Source of the DNA: Labilithrix sp.
GTDB lineage: Bacteria > Myxococcota_A > Polyangia > Polyangiales > Polyangiaceae
Direction: 5' to 3'
Assembly (NCBI GenBank): GCA_019637155.1
Contig: JAHBWE010000027.1
Location: 1-64,000, forward strand
Length of the DNA: 64,000 bases
Below the pieces are notes generated by a model. The model was not told the DNA's origin, ran no database searches, and worked only from the letters and a program-made list of their open reading frames with translations. The position numbers and the translations under genes are program-made. Numbering within the stretch: position 1 is the first letter of the stretch; each line of letters starts with the position of its first letter. Of this stretch, positions 3,434 through 53,820 are shown in pieces.

Positions 3434-3535
3434 TCAACGTCGGGGCTTCGCCCCGACACCCCACCCCAGACACGGCCCTCGCGCTGCGCGCTCGGGGCGC
3501 TTCGCGCCCGCTTGCGCGGCCGCTTCTGGGGCCCC
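3434..3535 (-). repeat. Structured interspersed element, copy A
   Basis: A GC-rich element of about 105 bp, read on the minus strand from GGGGCCCC to CGACGTTGA. Outer stem CCCCAGA (3464-3470) pairs with TCTGGGG (3525-3531); an inner hairpin GGGCGC-TTC-GCGCCC lies between them. The terminal hairpin GTCGGGGC-TTC-GCCCCGAC occupies 3439-3457. Its 3' end points at the TPR-protein gene, which starts 66 bp further on. Full copies are at 3637, 16198, 19637 and 52892, with a remnant at 53797. No ORF of its own is convincing. Confidence 0.85.
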
Positions 3536-3636: not shown

Positions 3637-3745
3637 GGGGCCCCGCGACCGCGGCCGCTTAAGCGGTTGCGAAGCAACCCGAGCGCGCAGCGCGAGGGCC
3701 GTGGTCGCGGGGTGGGGGTGTCGGGGGCGAAGCCCCCGACGTTGA
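3637..3745 (+). repeat. Structured interspersed element, copy B
   Basis: Same element in opposite orientation, head-to-head with copy A across about 100 bp. The outer stem here is CCCCGCGACC (3641-3650) with GGTCGCGGGG (3703-3712), a different sequence from copy A but still complementary. The inner hairpin is GGTTGC-GAA-GCAACC (3665-3679); a CCGCTTAAGCGG palindrome precedes it. The terminal hairpin GTCGGGGGC-GAA-GCCCCCGAC is at 3720-3740. A minisatellite begins about 30 bp after its 3' end. Confidence 0.87.
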
Positions 3746-3771
3746 GTGCCTTACTTACAGATCACCCTATA

Positions 3772-4003
3772 CCTCGCACGTCACCGGAATACCCCGCACG
3801 TCACCGGAATACCCTCGCACGTCACCGGAATACCCCGCACGTCACCGGAATACCCCGCACGTCACCGGAATACCCGCACGTCACGGAAAATACCCCGCAC
3901 GTCACGGAAATACCCCGCACGTCACGGAAATACCCCGCACGTCACGGGATACCGCACGCACCCGCACGTCACGGAACACCCCGCACCCGCACGTCACGGG
4001 AAC
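3772..4003. repeat. 20-bp tandem repeat (minisatellite), 11 units
   Basis: The octamer GCACGTCA recurs 11 times at 3776, 3796, 3817, 3837, 3857, 3876, 3897, 3917, 3937, 3964 and 3989, giving a period of 19-21 bp that loosens at the end. Early units read GCACGTCACCGGAATACCCC; later units drift to GTCACGGAAATACC. There are no unique spacers, so it is not a CRISPR array. The final unit contains the TGA stop (3994-3996, minus strand) of the neighbouring lipoprotein gene, so the array has abutted or replaced that gene's 3' end. Confidence 0.92.
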
Positions 4004-16197: not shown

Positions 16198-16306
16198 TCA
16201 ACGTCGGGGGCTTTGCCCCCGACACCCCCACCCCGCGACCACGGCCCTCGCGCGGAGCGCGAGGGTTGCTTCGCAACCGCTGCAGCGGCCGCGGTCGCGG
16301 GGCCCC
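16198..16306 (-). repeat. Structured interspersed element, copy E
   Basis: Reads on the minus strand from GGGGCCCC (16299-16306) to CGACGTTGA (16198 side). Outer stem CCCCGCGACC (16231-16240) pairs with GGTCGCGGGG (16293-16302). Inner hairpins are CCCTCGCGC-GGA-GCGCGAGGG (16245-16265) and GGTTGC-TTC-GCAACC (16264-16278), overlapping by two bases and so possibly alternative. The palindrome CCGCTGCAGCGG follows. The terminal hairpin has an altered loop (GTCGGGGGC-TTT-GCCCCCGAC). An open frame runs through it on the plus strand but is not likely coding. Confidence 0.87.
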
Positions 16307-16768: not shown

Positions 16769-19447
16769 TCAGTGCAGCTCGCCGACGAGCCAGGCCTGCG
16801 CGGGGACGAGCACCTCTTCGGGTGACGCGCCGCCGGTGCGGATGTGTCCGCGCCGATCGATCGTGAAGCCGTGGTCGCCCACGATGAAGAGGAGCGTGCG
16901 TGGAGCGACGGTGGTGAGGTGGCGCGCGATCGCCTCCGCGACCGACTGCGCGATGCCGGGGAGCTCGTGCACGGCGTTCGCGCCGGCGGCTTCGAGAAGG
17001 GAGGGGACGAGGTCGAGCTTGTAGACCTCGCGCGAGCCGACGCGCAGGCGGCGCACGGCTTCGGCGGCGCGGCCGCGCAGCGACTCGGAGGCTTCTTCGC
17101 CGGCGGGAGCGCGGAGCGCGTCCATGCCGCGGGCGAGGGTCTCGAGCTGTCGCATCGTCGTGGTGGGGAGGGCGCTCCAGAGCATCGTCTCGGCGCCGAG
17201 CGAGGCGACGCCGGCGGTCTCGCGCGCGAGCGCGTCACGGACCATCGCGCCGACGTCCCAGCGGAGCGAGTCGACGAGGAGCACGTGGGCGGAGCGCGCG
17301 CCGACGAGGCGAGCCTGCTTGGAGGCGAGGTCGAAGGCGTCCATCACGAGGCGTGGTCGCCGGTTCGTGGCCCCGAACGTCGTGAACGCGTCGGTATACG
17401 ACCGCTCGAACGAGCGTCGAAACTCGTCGAACGCCCGCAACGCACGCGGATCGTCGAGCCCCCCCGCGATCGCGTTCGCGAGCGGCACATAGCTCTCTGC
17501 AAAGAGCCGCTCGAACGCCGCGAGCGGCTGCGCCCCCCGCGCCGCGGCGAGCGCAAGCACCCAGCTCCGCCAAGCATCGTTCGCGACCGTAGCCTCCGGC
17601 ACCCCCACCGTCGCACTCCGCGCAGCCTTCCTCCGCCCCCGCCCCTCGCCACCACGCATAGCTTCACCCTCACGCGCGGTCGCAGCCTCACGCGTCATCA
17701 CCACATCCCGCGCCGCTTCGGTCTCGCGCGCGGTCTTAGCGTCACGCGTGGTCACCGCGTCCCGCGTCGCTTCGGTCTCGCGCGCGGTCGTAGCGTTGCG
17801 TGCCGGGTCGGTCTCACAAGCGGTTGCAGCCTCATGCGTCTGTTCGGCGTCGTCGCGAGTAGGCGCAGCATCGCGGGTCTGTTCCGCCTCATGCCGGACC
17901 TCGACGTCGCGCATCTGTTCGACATCGCGAGTGGTCGCGACCTCACGAGTGGTCGCAGTGGTCGCACCGTCGCGAGTGGTCGCGACCTCACGAGTGGTCG
18001 CAGTGGTCGCACCGTCGCGAGCCATCGCGGCCTCGTGAGCGGTCGCAGTGGTCGCAGCGTCGCGAGCCGCAGCGTTGCGAGCGGTTGCAGCATCGCGAGC
18101 GGTTGCAGCATCGCGAGTCTGTTCGGCGTCGCGCGTCTGTTCGGCCTTGCGAGTAGGCACATTGTCGCCCGTCTGTTTCGTCCCCTGCGAGACCTCGACG
18201 TCGCCCGTCTGCCCGGCGCCGCGTGTGGTCGCGGCGTCGCCCGTCAGTTCGGCGCCGCGCGTGGTCGTTGCGTCGCGTGTGGTCGCGGCGTCGAGCGGTG
18301 CTGCTGGGACGGCGAGGCTGGGGCGGCGTGTTCGCGGGCGGGGCATCGGGCCGCGCGATTCGACGATCGGCTCCGCGACGCATACGGAAGGTGCGAGCGC
18401 GAAAGGCTCCGCCGACCCGGCGGCCAGCTCCTCGCGCGGCCCGGCCTCGGCGGCGGAGGCCGCCATTGCGACGTCGAGGCGAACCTCGATCGACGCGAGC
18501 GCGGCCGTGATCTCGGTCGCGTGTTCGACGCGCGCCTCATGCGACGCGAGCCCGGTTGTGATCTCGGTCGCGGCTTCGACCCGCGTCTCGATCGACGCAT
18601 CGGCGACCGAGGCCTCCGTCGCGGCTTCGATGCACGCGGTCGCTGCCGCGATCGCTGCTTCGCTGCGCGCTTCGAGCGGAATGGGCGCGTCTGCGCCCGT
18701 TGCCGCCGTCGCGGCTTCGATGCGCGTCTCCAGCGACGCGGGCGCTAGGTGTACCGTGAGCGGCTCCGGGTCGACGAGCGTGATGCGCTCTGGCTCCGGG
18801 ATGGTGACGGGATCCGAGTCCGGCGCGGAGACGATCGCCTCCGCGACGTCGATCGAGATCGCGACGCTCTCGATCGCGGTCGCGTCGTCACCTGTGAGGA
18901 GCACGGGCGGCTCCTCCCGCGTCGCGATCGCTCCGAGGAGATCGTCGAGGCGGCGCGGCGCGGCGTATGCCGTGACGGCGATGTCCGCGTCGTCGATCAT
19001 CAGGACGAGCGGGAGCGCGGTCGTCGACTCGGCGAGCCAGCGGAGGAGCGCGCTGTCGTCCGGACAGAGCGACGGCGCCGCGATCGCGCGGAGCGTCCCG
19101 AGGCCGATCGCGATGCCGCTCGCGCCGACCTCCTGCGCACGAAGGAGCTGATCGGCGAGGCGCGCCGTCGCCTCGTCCGGCATCGCCGTCCACGCCGCGA
19201 GGTAGGGCGAAGGCGCGCCGGCGCGCGCGAGCTCGCGCTCCACGAGCTCCTCGAGGAGCGAGCCGAGATGACCGCGGACGTGCGCCGTAGGAGGCGGCAT
19301 CTGCACGAGCAACGCCCCCGCGCCGAGCAGCTCGATGCCTCGCTGCTCCTGTGCCTCCTCACTGAGGAACGAGACCTCACCCGAGAGCGGGAGGACACGC
19401 GGCGTCGTCGCAGGGATGCGAGCGTACTCGAGCGGCACTTGCAGCAT
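16769..19447 (-). CDS. PglZ-like (alkaline-phosphatase superfamily) protein with repeat-expanded middle
   Basis: 892 aa from ATG 19447. An upstream in-frame ATG at 19561 would read 38 residues out of partial repeat copies and is disfavoured. Residues 1-220 form an alpha/beta domain (PLVLMIDDADIAV, PPVLLTGDDATAI). Residues about 220-640 are low-complexity: first Glu/Ala/Ser, then degenerate repeats of TRDA/TREV type, with a 15-residue unit ATTATTREVATTRDG occurring twice. The C-terminal 260 residues look like PglZ: LLVDSLRWDVGAMV, the WSALPTTT motif and FIVGDHGFTIDRRGH, which supply metal-binding Asp/His. PglZ proteins occur in BREX and other systems, but no BREX partner is nearby. Function unknown. 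Confidence 0.75.
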   Translation of the reverse strand: MLQVPLEYARIPATTPRVLPLSGEVSFLSEEAQEQRGIELLGAGALLVQMPPPTAHVRGHLGSLLEELVERELARAGAPSPYLAAWTAMPDEATARLADQLLRAQEVGASGIAIGLGTLRAIAAPSLCPDDSALLRWLAESTTALPLVLMIDDADIAVTAYAAPRRLDDLLGAIATREEPPVLLTGDDATAIESVAISIDVAEAIVSAPDSDPVTIPEPERITLVDPEPLTVHLAPASLETRIEAATAATGADAPIPLEARSEAAIAAATACIEAATEASVADASIETRVEAATEITTGLASHEARVEHATEITAALASIEVRLDVAMAASAAEAGPREELAAGSAEPFALAPSVCVAEPIVESRGPMPRPRTRRPSLAVPAAPLDAATTRDATTTRGAELTGDAATTRGAGQTGDVEVSQGTKQTGDNVPTRKAEQTRDAEQTRDAATARDAATARNAAARDAATTATAHEAAMARDGATTATTREVATTRDGATTATTREVATTRDVEQMRDVEVRHEAEQTRDAAPTRDDAEQTHEAATACETDPARNATTARETEATRDAVTTRDAKTARETEAARDVVMTREAATAREGEAMRGGEGRGRRKAARSATVGVPEATVANDAWRSWVLALAAARGAQPLAAFERLFAESYVPLANAIAGGLDDPRALRAFDEFRRSFERSYTDAFTTFGATNRRPRLVMDAFDLASKQARLVGARSAHVLLVDSLRWDVGAMVRDALARETAGVASLGAETMLWSALPTTTMRQLETLARGMDALRAPAGEEASESLRGRAAEAVRRLRVGSREVYKLDLVPSLLEAAGANAVHELPGIAQSVAEAIARHLTTVAPRTLLFIVGDHGFTIDRRGHIRTGGASPEEVLVPAQAWLVGELH
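17650..18300. repeat. Coding degenerate repeats within the PglZ-like gene
   Basis: Short units built around GTCGCG and GCGAGTGGTCGC recur in register with the reading frame. The clearest is a 45-bp unit seen twice in a row near 17930-18030. Other units of about 21 bp encode (T/A)RD(A/V)-type heptads. The frame is preserved throughout, so expansion has been by whole codons. The region will be prone to length change and assembly error. Confidence 0.8.
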
Positions 19448-19497: not shown

Positions 19498-19636
19498 GGC
19501 CCCAGAAGCCGCGGTCACGAAGCGCGAGTGTTGGGTCGGCGGCCCCAGAAGCCGCGGTCACGAAGCGCGAGTGTTGGGTCGGGGGCCCCAGAAGCAGCCG
19601 CGGTCACGAACCGCGAGTGTTGGTTCGGGTTGTGCC
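19498..19636 (+). repeat. Three partial tandem copies of the structured element's 5' part
   Basis: Units starting GGCCCCAGAAGC(C/A)... recur at about 19498, 19541 and 19585, each followed by GCGGTCACGAA(G/C)CGCGAGTG and then the next unit, about 43-55 bp apart. They carry the left arm and the GAA-loop region of the element but not the terminal hairpin. They directly precede full copy C, as if 5' ends had been repeatedly duplicated. Confidence 0.8.
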
Positions 19637-19739
19637 GGGGCCCCAGAAGCGGCCGCGAAAGCGGTCGCGAAGCGACCCTCGCGCTCCGCGCGAGGGCCGT
19701 GTCTGGGGTGGGGTGTCGGGGCGAAGCCCCGACGTTGAC
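19637..19739 (+). repeat. Structured interspersed element, copy C
   Basis: Outer stem CCCCAGA (19641-19647) with TCTGGGG (19703-19709). Inner hairpin GGTCGC-GAA-GCGACC (19663-19677), then CCCTCGCGC-TCC-GCGCGAGGG. Terminal hairpin GTCGGGGC-GAA-GCCCCGAC (19716-19734) and end CGTTGA. With copy E it brackets the Cys-rich lipoprotein and PglZ-like genes, 5' ends facing inward. Confidence 0.87.
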
Positions 19740-20029
19740 CTGATTGACGCGTTGCGGTCCGGTTCCTACGCTTCGTTGGTTCCCTCTGCCGGTCTCGTGC
19801 TTGTGGTTTTCATGATCCCCTTATGTATGTGAACCAGGGAGGCAAACGATCGCTCGTTGTGCACGCCGGACCATCTCTCACGAGCTCTGGATAATTCGGA
19901 AGCCTGAAGCGCGATCCGCGTCGCCCACCTAGCCTACGGGCTAGGGGTTCATGACAATCCGCACACGGACCAAGCGGTACGGAATTTTTGGCGGGCCTCG
20001 CGCGGAAGCGAAGAGGCCCGCTGCCTATT
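19740..20029. other. Intergenic region of about 290 bp with two small hairpins
   Basis: No gene seen. CCTAGCC-TACG-GGCTAGG forms a 7-bp stem at 19928-19945. GCGGGCCTC (19991-19999) and GAGGCCCGC (20013-20021) form a 9-bp stem just past the stop of the diheme gene. The second is followed on the minus strand by CAAAAATT rather than U's, so it is not a textbook terminator. The stretch 19745-19870 is unusually A/T-rich for this genome. No tRNA cloverleaf was found. Confidence 0.45.
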
Positions 20030-34910: not shown

Positions 34911-36818
34911 CTACGGCTCCGACTGGATGAAGAGCTCGTTCGCGACGGTGTCGACATCGGTGTCGCGCGAAGCGGTCTCGACAAGCGCGACGAGGCCCGC
35001 CTCGCCCGGTGCCGCTGCGACGAAGTTGGTATCGTCCGCCGCGACGGGTGCCGCGTCGACGGGAGCCGCTGCGGCGTGGGCTGCGACGAAGCCGGCATCG
35101 TCTGCGTTCGTCGTGACGGGGGCCGCATCGGCGCGTGCCGCGGCGTGCGTTGCGAGGCCCGCCTGGGGTGCCGCGTGCGGTGCGACGAGGGATGCATCGG
35201 CGCGTGGCGCTGCCGTGTCCACTGCTACGAGCGCGATGAGGCCGGCATCGGCGCACGCCGCTGCGGCGTCCGCTGGGACGACCGCGACGAGGCGGCCGCG
35301 ATCGAAGAGACGCCGCTCGATCGCGCGTGCGAGCGAGGCCGGCACCTCTGCGACAAGACCGCGCTGACCGAGCCGCGCGCGCCGCTCCTCGACCGACACC
35401 ACGCCGCGCGCCGCAGCGACGTCGCGTGCGGTTGCGTAGTCGCGCGCCGCAGCGACGTCGCGTGCGGTTGCGTAGTCGCGCGCCGCAGCGACGTCGCGCG
35501 CCGCAGCGACGTCGCGCGCCGCGGCGGCGGCGGCGCTGCGGAGCATGCCGGCGGCGACGGTGTCGTTCGTGCGTGTGTCGATGACGATGAAGGCGCCGGT
35601 CGTGCGGTTTCTTGTGTAGGGGTCGAACGTGAGCGGGGCGCGTGCGCGGAGTTGCACGCGCGCGATCGCGTTGAGGCCGAGCGGCTGCGGCTGCGGCTGC
35701 GACGGGGCCGCGTCGAGCTCTGCGCGTACGGTGCGCGTCGTGTGCTTCACGAGGTAGACGCGACCGCGCTCGAGCGGGCGCTCGCTCATCCATACCAGGT
35801 CGGCCTCGAGGAGGCTGGCGCTCTCCGGGAGATCGTCGGGGTGCGCGAGGAGGTCGCCGCGGCTCACGTCGATCTCGTCGCCGAGGCGCAGCGCGACGCT
35901 CTCGCCCGCCCCCGCGCTCGCGACGCTGCGGTCGCCGACGTCGATCGCGACGACGCGCGCGCGCTTCCCCGAAGGGAGGGCGACCACCTCGTCTCCCACC
36001 GCGATCGTGCCCGACGCGATGCGGCCCGCGAAGCCGCGGTACGAGAGGCCGGGCCGGATGACCAGCTGCACCGGCATGCGGAAGCCCGTCGCCGCCGGCG
36101 CCGCGGCCGGCAGCGTCTCGAGCCGCTCGAGCAGCGTCCCGCCCGTCCACCACGGCATGCGCGTGCTCGCCGCGACGACGTTGTCGCCCGCGAGCGCGCT
36201 CACCGGGATCGCGGAGAGCGACGGCAGCCCGACCACCGCGGCGAGCGCGTCGAGCTCCGCCACGATCGCGGCGAAGCGCCCTTCGTCGAAGGCGACGAGG
36301 TCCATCTTGTTCACGCACGCGACCACGTGCGGGATCCCCAGCAGCGCGGCGATGCGCGCGTGGCGCTCCGTCTGCTCGATGACGCCGAGCCGCGCGTCGA
36401 CGAGGATGACGGCCGCGCCGGCGGTCGACGCCCCCGTCGCCATGTTGCGTGTATACTGCACGTGGCCGGGGGTGTCGGCGATGATGAACTTCCGCCGCGA
36501 CGTCGTGAAGTAGCGGTACGCGACGTCGATCGTGATCCCTTGCTCCCGCTCCGCGAGGAGGCCGTCGGTGAAGAGCGAGAAGTCGATCTCCGACGCCGAC
36601 GCGCCCACCCGCGTCGCGCCCCTCGCCGACGCGCGACGAACGGCGTCGAGCTGATCCTGGTAGAGCCCGTGCGCGTCGTGGAGGAGCCGCCCGATCAGCG
36701 TCGACTTCCCGTCGTCGACCGAGCCGATCGTCACGAAGCGAAGGATCTCCTTCTCTTCTTGAGCCTGGACCCACTCGTGCAACGCGTCCGCGCTCGTCGT
36801 CGTCCAACGCAAGGCCAT
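34911..36818 (-). CDS. cysN: Sulfate adenylyltransferase GTPase subunit CysN fused to a decayed CysC domain
   Basis: 635 aa. With CysD it makes APS from sulfate and ATP, driven by GTP hydrolysis. G1 GSVDDGKST (32-40), G3 DTPGHVQYTRNM, G4 NKMDL and CysN family motif TTRTVRA / YTRNRTTGAF are intact. After residue about 430 comes an Ala/Arg/Asp repeat, then APS-kinase-like sequence: VSVEERRARLGQRG, VPASLARAIERRLFDRGR and CADAGLIALVA. Family members read GLPASGKSTLARA..., so the GKST of the P-loop is missing, and the LDGD motif is gone. The tail is Ala/Pro-rich. CysN activity likely, APS kinase not. The start TGATG overlap with cysD shows coupling. Confidence 0.9.
   Translation of the reverse strand: MALRWTTTSADALHEWVQAQEEKEILRFVTIGSVDDGKSTLIGRLLHDAHGLYQDQLDAVRRASARGATRVGASASEIDFSLFTDGLLAEREQGITIDVAYRYFTTSRRKFIIADTPGHVQYTRNMATGASTAGAAVILVDARLGVIEQTERHARIAALLGIPHVVACVNKMDLVAFDEGRFAAIVAELDALAAVVGLPSLSAIPVSALAGDNVVAASTRMPWWTGGTLLERLETLPAAAPAATGFRMPVQLVIRPGLSYRGFAGRIASGTIAVGDEVVALPSGKRARVVAIDVGDRSVASAGAGESVALRLGDEIDVSRGDLLAHPDDLPESASLLEADLVWMSERPLERGRVYLVKHTTRTVRAELDAAPSQPQPQPLGLNAIARVQLRARAPLTFDPYTRNRTTGAFIVIDTRTNDTVAAGMLRSAAAAAARDVAAARDVAAARDYATARDVAAARDYATARDVAAARGVVSVEERRARLGQRGLVAEVPASLARAIERRLFDRGRLVAVVPADAAAACADAGLIALVAVDTAAPRADASLVAPHAAPQAGLATHAAARADAAPVTTNADDAGFVAAHAAAAPVDAAPVAADDTNFVAAAPGEAGLVALVETASRDTDVDTVANELFIQSEP
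35405..35535. repeat. Coding 18/36-bp repeats in cysN linker
   Basis: GCGCGCCGCAGCGACGTC units, some followed by GCGTGCGGTTGCGTAGTC, are repeated in frame and encode AAARDV and AAARDYATARDV. About six to seven units. The placement at the CysN/CysC junction suggests that replication slippage lengthened the linker as the CysC domain decayed. Confidence 0.85.
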
Positions 36819-51710: not shown

Positions 51711-52784
51711 ATGGAGAACACCCAACAGCCGACCGCGACACCGCAAGTCTCGAGCGGTCCCTCGTTCCCCGATCGGATGAAGGTCCTCGCGCGCCGCATC
51801 GCGCCGAAGCTGGGGTACCCCGCCTTCTACCTGTTCTGTCTCCTCATCTTCATCTCGTGGACGTTCCCGTACGAGAAGCTGAAGGACCGCATCGTCACGC
51901 AGTTCAACGCGCAGCAGTCGAAGAGCAGGAACCCGCAGGAGCTCCAGATCGACGAGCTCGACTCGTCGTTCGTCACCGGCGTGAAGGCGAAGGGCGTCCG
52001 CCTCATCTCCCCCCCCGCCGAGGCGGGCAAGGCGCCGAGCGTGCTGACGATCGACGAGGCCCGCGCGCGCATCTCGCTCCTCGGTCTCCTCGTCGGCAAC
52101 AAGAGCGTGAGCTTCAAGGTCGAGGCGTTCGACGGCATCATCAAGGGCGCCTTCGACGACAGCGGCAAGACGCGCGAGATCGAGATGAGCTTCGACGGCG
52201 TCGACGTCGGTCGCGTCGACCTCGTCGCCGCGAACGTCGGGTTTCCGATCGACGGCAAGCTGTTCGGCGCGATCAAGCTCACGATGCCGGAGGGGAAGGC
52301 CTCGAAGGCGAACGGCACGATCGAGCTCGAGATCCGCGACGCGAACGCGGGCAACACGAAGGAGCTGACGCTCAAGACGCCGCTCGGCCCGTTCACGCTC
52401 CCGCGCCTCAAGATCGGCAACTTCATGATCAACGGCGAGGCGAAGGACGGCGTCCTCAAGATCACGAAGATCTCCGCGAGCGGCGGCGACGTCGACGTCG
52501 CGGGCGACGGCAAGATCCAGCTCCGCGAGGTCGCGAACGACGCGCACCTCGACGTGAACCTGAAGTTCAAGATCAACGACGCGTACCGGAACAAGAACGA
52601 CAAGACGAAGCTCCTCTTCGGCTCGCCCGGCTCGAAGGAGAAGCCGATGCTCGAGATGGACCCGAAGATGGGGAAGGCGAAGGGCGCCGACGGCTTCTAC
52701 GTCCTCCGCGTCGGCGGCACCCTCGGCAAACCCGACGTCCGCGCCGGCACCCCCGCCAGCGGCCCCGCGAGCGAACCCAAATGA
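51711..52784 (+). CDS. gspN: Type II secretion protein GspN
   Basis: 357 aa. GAGGAAGCG precedes ATG 51711. A helix at about 36-51 (YPAFYLFCLLIFISWTFPYE) anchors it; the rest is a beta-rich AsmA/GspN-like periplasmic domain (RIVTQFNAQQ, ITKISASGGDVDVAGDGKIQ). Present in Xanthomonas-, Geobacter- and myxobacterial-type operons, absent in many others. Last gene of the operon. Confidence 0.85.
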   Translation: MENTQQPTATPQVSSGPSFPDRMKVLARRIAPKLGYPAFYLFCLLIFISWTFPYEKLKDRIVTQFNAQQSKSRNPQELQIDELDSSFVTGVKAKGVRLISPPAEAGKAPSVLTIDEARARISLLGLLVGNKSVSFKVEAFDGIIKGAFDDSGKTREIEMSFDGVDVGRVDLVAANVGFPIDGKLFGAIKLTMPEGKASKANGTIELEIRDANAGNTKELTLKTPLGPFTLPRLKIGNFMINGEAKDGVLKITKISASGGDVDVAGDGKIQLREVANDAHLDVNLKFKINDAYRNKNDKTKLLFGSPGSKEKPMLEMDPKMGKAKGADGFYVLRVGGTLGKPDVRAGTPASGPASEPK

Positions 52785-52798
52785 TCAAGGAACACGCC

Positions 52799-52891
52799 TG
52801 GGCCCCAGAAGCTGCTGCGGCAACGCCCCCGCGAACGCGCCTGGGCAAGGGCGCCCCAGCAGCAGCTGCGGCAACGCCCCCGCGAGCGCCC
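52799..52891 (+). repeat. Two partial tandem copies of the structured element's 5' part
   Basis: GGCCCCAGAAGCTGCTGCGG and then a second unit beginning CCCCAGCAGCAGCTGCGGC about 55 bp on, both followed by CAACGCCCCCGCGA(A/G)CGC. They carry the left arm but no terminal hairpin and directly precede full copy D, as at copy C. Confidence 0.8.
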
Positions 52892-52996
52892 GGGGCCCCA
52901 GAAGCGGCCGCTCCAGCGGGCGCGAAGCGCCCCGAGCGCGCAGCGCGAGGGCCGTGTCTGGGGTGGGGGTGTCGGGGGCGAAGCCCCCGACGTTGA
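52892..52996 (+). repeat. Structured interspersed element, copy D
   Basis: Outer stem CCCCAGA (52896-52902) with TCTGGGG (52957-52963); inner hairpin GGGCGC-GAA-GCGCCC (52918-52932); terminal hairpin GTCGGGGGC-GAA-GCCCCCGAC (52971-52991); end GTTGA at 52996. The btpA ATG lies 10 bases past its end, so the element effectively occupies the whole leader of btpA. Confidence 0.88.
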
Positions 52997-53005
52997 CAGA
53001 CCACC

Positions 53006-53785
53006 ATGCTCGTTGGTGTCATTCATCTTCCGCCGCTTCCCGGTAGTCCGCGGTCTGTGCTCGCCGCCGCCGACTGCGCGCGGTCTGCTGCTGGCGACGC
53101 CGCGTCTCTCGCGCAGGCGGGCTACGACGCGATCATCGTCGAGAACTTCGGCGACGCGCCGTTCTTCGCCGGCCGCGTTCCGCCGGTCACGATCGCGGCG
53201 ATGACGGCGTGTGCGCTCGCGGTGCGCGCGGCGGCGCCGGACACGAAGCTCGGCATCAACGTCCTCCGCAACGACGCGGAGTCGGCGCTCGCGATCGCGG
53301 TCGCGACGGGCGCCTCGTTCATTCGCGTGAACGTCCACACCGGCGCGCGCGTCACGGATCAGGGCGTCATCGAGGGCGACGCGGCGTCGACGCTCCGGCT
53401 GCGCCGCGCGCTCGGCGCCGAGGTCGACGTCTGGGCCGACGTCGACGTGAAGCACTCCGCGCCGCTCGGCCCGCCGCGTCCCATCGCGCAGGAGGTCGAG
53501 GACACGACGAAGCGCGCGCTCGCCGCCGCCGTGCTCGTGACGGGGGAGGGGACCGGCAAGGGCGTCGACGTCGAGAAGCTCGCGGAGGTGAAGAAGGCCG
53601 CCGGCGCCGCACCCGTCTACGTCGCGAGCGGCGCGACGATCGAGACGTTGCCGCTCCTCGGAGCCCACGCAAACGGCGTCATCGTCGGCAGCGCCCTCCG
53701 CCCCGGCGGCATCCCAGGCGGCCCGATCGACATCGCCCTCGCGAAGTCCTTCGCCGACGCGTACAGGCGCGCGTTCGCGCGCTAG
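53006..53785 (+). CDS. btpA: BtpA/SgcQ-family TIM-barrel protein
   Basis: 259 aa, TIM-barrel. Begins LVGVIHLPPLPGSP, and has IIVENFGDAPFF, LGINVLRND and IRVNVHTGARVTDQGVIEG, VLVTGEGTGKG, and ends with VIVGSALRPGG, the BtpA/SgcQ signature. Known for photosystem I stability in cyanobacteria, but the family is wide and non-photosynthetic members are of uncertain role. Leader contains structured element copy D, and a remnant lies just past the stop. Confidence 0.88.
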   Translation: MLVGVIHLPPLPGSPRSVLAAADCARSAAGDAASLAQAGYDAIIVENFGDAPFFAGRVPPVTIAAMTACALAVRAAAPDTKLGINVLRNDAESALAIAVATGASFIRVNVHTGARVTDQGVIEGDAASTLRLRRALGAEVDVWADVDVKHSAPLGPPRPIAQEVEDTTKRALAAAVLVTGEGTGKGVDVEKLAEVKKAAGAAPVYVASGATIETLPLLGAHANGVIVGSALRPGGIPGGPIDIALAKSFADAYRRAFAR

Positions 53786-53796
53786 TTGTTGCTTCC

Positions 53797-53820
53797 TCAA
53801 CGTCGGGAGCTTCGCCCACG
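53797..53820 (-). repeat. Remnant of structured element (3' terminal part), copy F
   Basis: TCAACGTCGGGAGCTTCGCCC matches the 3' end of the element, in minus orientation, with a damaged terminal hairpin. The rest of the element is gone. With copy D it places inverted 3' ends on each side of btpA. Confidence 0.65.

Follow-up and report, generated by a model that had tools for sequence, protein, structure and literature searches.

Between a gspN-like gene (stop codon at 52784) and a btpA-like gene (start at 53006) lies a structured element of about 105 nt, copy D, at 52892–52996 on the plus strand of the window, by which the whole 64,000-nt stretch of Labilithrix sp. DNA analysed here is meant. 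Its outer stem is CCCCAGA/TCTGGGG and its inner hairpin GGGCGC. An earlier note had reported five full copies and one remnant with a common layout; all are present, and the observation of a repeated structured element is confirmed. The reported coordinates are also right, with the correction that copies A and E and the remnant F lie on the minus strand. Copy A (3434–3535, minus) has a terminal hairpin of 8 bp, while copy B (3637–3745, plus) and copy E (16198–16306, minus) carry an outer stem of the CCCCGCGACC/GGTCGCGGGG type. Copy C (19637–19739, plus) stops a short way before the –35 box of a 6S RNA gene. Remnant F (53797–53820, minus) is a degraded terminal hairpin alone, with a CGACGTTGA end, about 11 nt past the btpA stop codon. 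Inverted pairs of copies within the window match over 108–109 nt at 92–94% identity, well above chance. Absent from the earlier note are degenerate copies that comprise the 5' portion of the element alone: three in tandem, each of 43 nt, directly 5' of copy C (19498–19629, plus), and others directly 5' of copy D (52790–52890, plus).

The element folds into a cloverleaf, in which a long outer stem encloses three hairpins, followed by a separate hairpin at the 3' end. In its own orientation it begins GGGG-CCCC and runs through the first arm of the outer stem, the three hairpins and the closing arm to a G-rich linker, GGGG(T)GGGGG, and the terminal hairpin. The outer stem has 14–17 bp and includes a conserved G.T mismatch. 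The terminal hairpin, GTCGGGGGC-GAA-GCCCCCGAC, is a triloop with a stem of 8–9 bp and is followed by GTTGA, so that the element ends CGTTGA. Copy E forms a perfect cloverleaf and hairpin at –80.8 kcal/mol (z –5.6); fold z-scores range from –2.9 to –6 as RNA and from –3.9 to –5.4 as DNA, and similar folds are obtained with DNA parameters and for the opposite strand. The two ends, GGGGCCCC and CGTTGA, are unrelated and form no terminal inverted repeats, and there is no U-tract. In a scan of the window against Rfam 15 the element had no match above the gathering threshold, the sole match being a 6S RNA.

A hidden Markov model built on the five window copies and run on 1.264 Mb of the same genome found 59 full-length copies. 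The exact 12-mer end signature CCCCGACGTTGA occurs 38 times in this sample and 158 times in the whole 10.1-Mb genome, and scaling by this ratio gives an estimate of about 245 full copies. The reversed signature, used as a control, is absent from the genome, while the signature itself occurs 0–5 times in 11 relatives. A covariance-model search found at least 150 copies in the genome and none in 11 genomes of the same genus. Nearly all large contigs carry copies, some of them up to 98% identical to copy D at unrelated loci. No interspersed 20-mer families were found in samples of 400 kb and 300 kb from two relatives. A degenerate pattern run over named GTDB genomes, a scan in which the element's own genome was possibly not included, gave 26 scattered single matches that were judged to be chance. 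The search of the genome and its relatives that the earlier note had proposed shows complete turnover of the repeat within the genus, with some 245 estimated copies in one species and none in eleven others. No published description of such an element in myxobacteria-like genomes was found.

The flanks of about 118 compared copies are unrelated outside sharp ends. Two of the sites are empty in relatives. At the site of copy D, btpA comes almost immediately after the gspN-like gene in the relatives (L189 and L190, as well as L188, which is in reverse orientation). At the site of copy C, an upstream block (TGGCCCA..TTTC) is closely followed by the 6S promoter (L301, L305 and L306). The intergenic DNA at these empty sites has diverged in the relatives, and the exact target sequence is not derivable from them. 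The two empty orthologous sites and the differing flanks together indicate a dispersed mobile element. The alternative that the copies are fragments of one recent segmental duplication, which the earlier note had itself raised, would suit the 100-nt spacing and opposite orientation of copies A and B; it retains next to no probability, since A and B have different stem types, copies are spread over nearly all large contigs and the unrelated flanks refute it. Target-site duplications show no excess over chance, save for a few tandem arrays; some copies stand in such arrays with spacers of 4–7 nt, and degenerate partial copies have mostly accumulated on the 5' side of the element. The element is thus dispersed, recently multiplied and intergenic, missing from the orthologous sites of relatives, and without terminal inverted repeats or target-site duplications.

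The 6S RNA gene (19780–19984; RF00013, 53.9 bits) begins 40 nt downstream of copy C, and its region is conserved in 11 of 11 relatives. GTTGA was considered as a target site, as relatives have GTTGACC upstream of 6S. This was ruled out by the intact native –35 box, TTGACG, which lies 17 nt before TACGCT and about 6 nt downstream of the end of copy C. An identity as an attC site was rejected for want of an RYYYAAC start, and local GC skew proved too weak to decide on a replication-strand bias.

The stem variants quoted in the earlier note are correct, and additional ones occur genome-wide. The outer stem is found in four or five types with complementary arms, those parsed being CCCCAGA/TCTGGGG, CCCCGCGAC/GTCGCGGGG, CCCCGCGAA/TTCGCGGGG and CCCCGGGA/TCCCGGGG; the inner hairpin has four pair types, GC/GCC, TT/AAC, TC/GAC and TTT/AAA. 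Covariation was assessed against a null in which the substitutions of each column were redistributed over a FastTree tree. One pair exceeded what phylogeny explains (29–39, E = 0.005) and the next reached E = 0.2 (30–38); both of these top-ranked pairs are true stem partners. Further high-ranked signals comprise the true partners 9–68 and 11–66 together with subfamily block effects.

The covariation is real, as the earlier note stated, but its reading of compensatory change as the mark of a selected fold holds only in part, as double changes nearly free of intermediates can also arise by template switching on a DNA hairpin. Variable inner pairs are swapped between G-C and T-A or between C-G and T-A, with 5 of 224 cells unpaired and no G.T. 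Outside the one fixed G.T pair, G.U mismatches number 17 (14 of them in one column), against 17 A.C mismatches. As G.U intermediates are nearly absent and G.U is about as frequent as A.C, a DNA-level or mutational cause is favoured over selection on one RNA strand, and the scarcity of such intermediates fits DNA-hairpin or template-switch repair better than RNA selection. Template switching, by which one arm of a palindrome is rewritten from the other in a single step, is documented as giving rise to paired stem changes (PMC8794818), and there is an appreciable chance, if somewhat short of even, that mutation of this kind accounts for the covariation. It should, however, erase fixed mismatches, and these persist: an A.G at 12–65 in the AGA type, a G.T at 13–64 in 109 of 112 and a tandem G.A in hairpin 3. 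Their persistence suggests some constraint, and that something still recognises the fold. Template switching bears on why the stems covary and is compatible with a mobile element; so clear a case of covarying stems in mobile DNA is a warning for RNA gene calls based on covariation.

According to a simple codon-model ORF finder made for this work, 49 of the 59 full copies lie between genes. Of 41 separate loci, 14 have the stop codon of an incoming gene no more than 20 nt from the 3' end of the element, compared with one locus for the 5' end; random intergenic placement expects about 5% near stop codons (p ~ 1e-8). The placement of the terminal hairpin 4–15 nt past stop codons at one third of loci is what might be expected of a functional RNA, whether a hairpin that serves 3'-end processing or termination or a family of small RNAs, that had spread because it is useful past genes. 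The sense-strand position past stop codons of a second family, GAGGGCTCTGCCCTCTCGAGCTC, at 13 of 14 loci points the same way. A functional RNA is nonetheless improbable: both orientations relative to transcription occur, the mismatch classes favour neither strand, the U-tract is missing and the element is absent from all 11 relatives. The suggestion of a small RNA family in the earlier note, without a match in Rfam, copies in relatives or a strand preference in the wobble counts, finds no support.

The GAGGGCTCTGCCCTCTCGAGCTC family is a hairpin family unrelated in sequence to the 105-nt element. It has 77 copies in the genome (for example on contigs C9, C10 and C6), and among the relatives a single match with three mismatches in one and none in the ten others. 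Copies at those 13 loci lie 0–7 nt past the stop codon. Its layout of a hairpin, a C-rich linker and a larger stem-loop is the same as that of the 105-nt element.

MITEs, ERIC and BOX are non-coding intergenic repeats of about 100 nt with strong secondary structure, and BOX is modular. The element resembles them in size, intergenic placement, structure and lack of coding capacity, but differs in sequence and fold; it is not a MITE, having neither terminal inverted repeats nor target-site duplications. It also has much in common with the REP, REPIN and BIME repeats that TnpA(REP) (RAYT) transposases mobilise, being high-copy, intergenic, hairpin-forming, specific to a species or genus, clustered and often situated past stop codons in a genome with RAYT-like genes. 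Those repeats, however, are 20–40 nt long, compared with 105 nt, and are built from a single hairpin or an inverted pair rather than a cloverleaf with one hairpin. The element is a high-copy intergenic palindromic repeat like a canonical GTAG REP, yet it falls outside that family on two tested features: GT[AG]G is missing from the 5' foot of the hairpin (aligned copies have GGTG/GGGG on the plus and CAAC/ACCCCCA on the minus strand), and no RAYT gene at six loci is flanked by it. Nor does it belong to the CGTC-tagged REPs (Di Nocera et al. 2013, PMC3733652). Its minus-strand terminal hairpin, TCAACGTCGGGGGC-TTC-GCCCCCGACACC, likewise starts with CGTC and has a stem of 8–9 bp. In those REPs, however, the tag is unpaired, the stem starts with A-T pairs, the loop has 4–5 nt and a CCA tail follows, whereas in the element the tag is partly paired (GTC with GAC), the stem is G-C, the loop has 3 nt, CCA is lacking and a cloverleaf module is added. 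The element looks like a REP-like family that is both new and non-canonical, and whose fold is branched.

Genes for six RAYT-like proteins of the Y1 HUH type, which bear HxH and Tyr motifs and fall into two subclades, are present in the genome (contigs C20, C13, C39, C24 and, twice, C12). The C20 paralog, the one tested, scores below the curated cut-off for both the REP-associated tyrosine transposase family NF047646 (31.7 bits against 80) and PF01797 (21 against 23). Two pairs of the genes have 97% identity that barely extends beyond the coding sequence, which looks as though the gene had moved by itself as a minimal unit, and a GCTATGCT-type sequence lies just upstream of all six. The earlier note's proposal of a REP/RAYT-like mobile hairpin is borne out as to kind by the estimated 245 dispersed copies in one species, the empty sites, the intergenic placement, the lack of target-site duplications and these six co-resident genes; its weak points are the missing GT[AG]G foot and the missing linkage. 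No element lies within 1.5 kb of the genes at any of the six loci, and in the 12 kb examined at each of them the only copy in all is a partial one, 3.7 kb away. Linkage was rejected on this ground and because the ends of the duplicated RAYT unit are unlike those of the element. RAYT-like genes are also present in relatives without the element.

Other machinery, such as an unseen or lost transposase or hairpin recombination and repair, might instead have spread the element, in which case the six RAYT-like genes would be mere bystanders. This is unlikely, though of some weight given that none of the genes is flanked by the element and that the CGTC-tagged REPs of other bacteria are likewise without a linked transposase (PMC3733652). 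Against it, the lack of target-site duplications and terminal inverted repeats and the hairpins near the end form an IS200/IS605-like pattern, and no autonomous partner with another kind of transposase and the same ends was found in the 1.264-Mb sample. That no longer element in this sample has these ends also tells against the preferred reading given below. TnpA subclasses without associated REPs are known (PMC6006769).

The reading preferred here, with a probability of roughly 60%, is that of a miniature mobile DNA element of the REP/BIME kind, about 105 nt long, non-autonomous and confined to one species, that is mobilised by a Y1 HUH transposase. Such an enzyme is the likeliest agent judging from anatomy: the lack of terminal inverted repeats and target-site duplications, the subterminal hairpins and the co-resident enzymes. 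One strand of the element would fold when single-stranded, as on the lagging strand, and a TnpA(REP)/RAYT-type Y1 HUH transposase would then cleave and join it in trans. Local arrays may grow via slippage between GGGG tracts, and copies inserted next to a gene end would be transcribed as 3'-UTR or 5'-leader hairpins. It is a rather doubtful further step to see in the two unrelated families of the same layout a new HUH-mobilised class, with a four-way junction (cloverleaf) plus hairpin as substrate and each family perhaps served by one RAYT-like subclade. With this element the REP-like repeats gain an architecture that is composite and branched, and they gain it in a lineage for which none was found described.

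Simple repeats also occur in the window. About nine tandem 20-nt units of ATACCCCGCACGTCACCGGA lie directly 3' of copy B, at 3769–3953. At 17650–18640 and 35180–35530, long open frames contain further tandem repeats (periods 18, 36, 45, 51 and 54 nt), which encode low-complexity repeat proteins.
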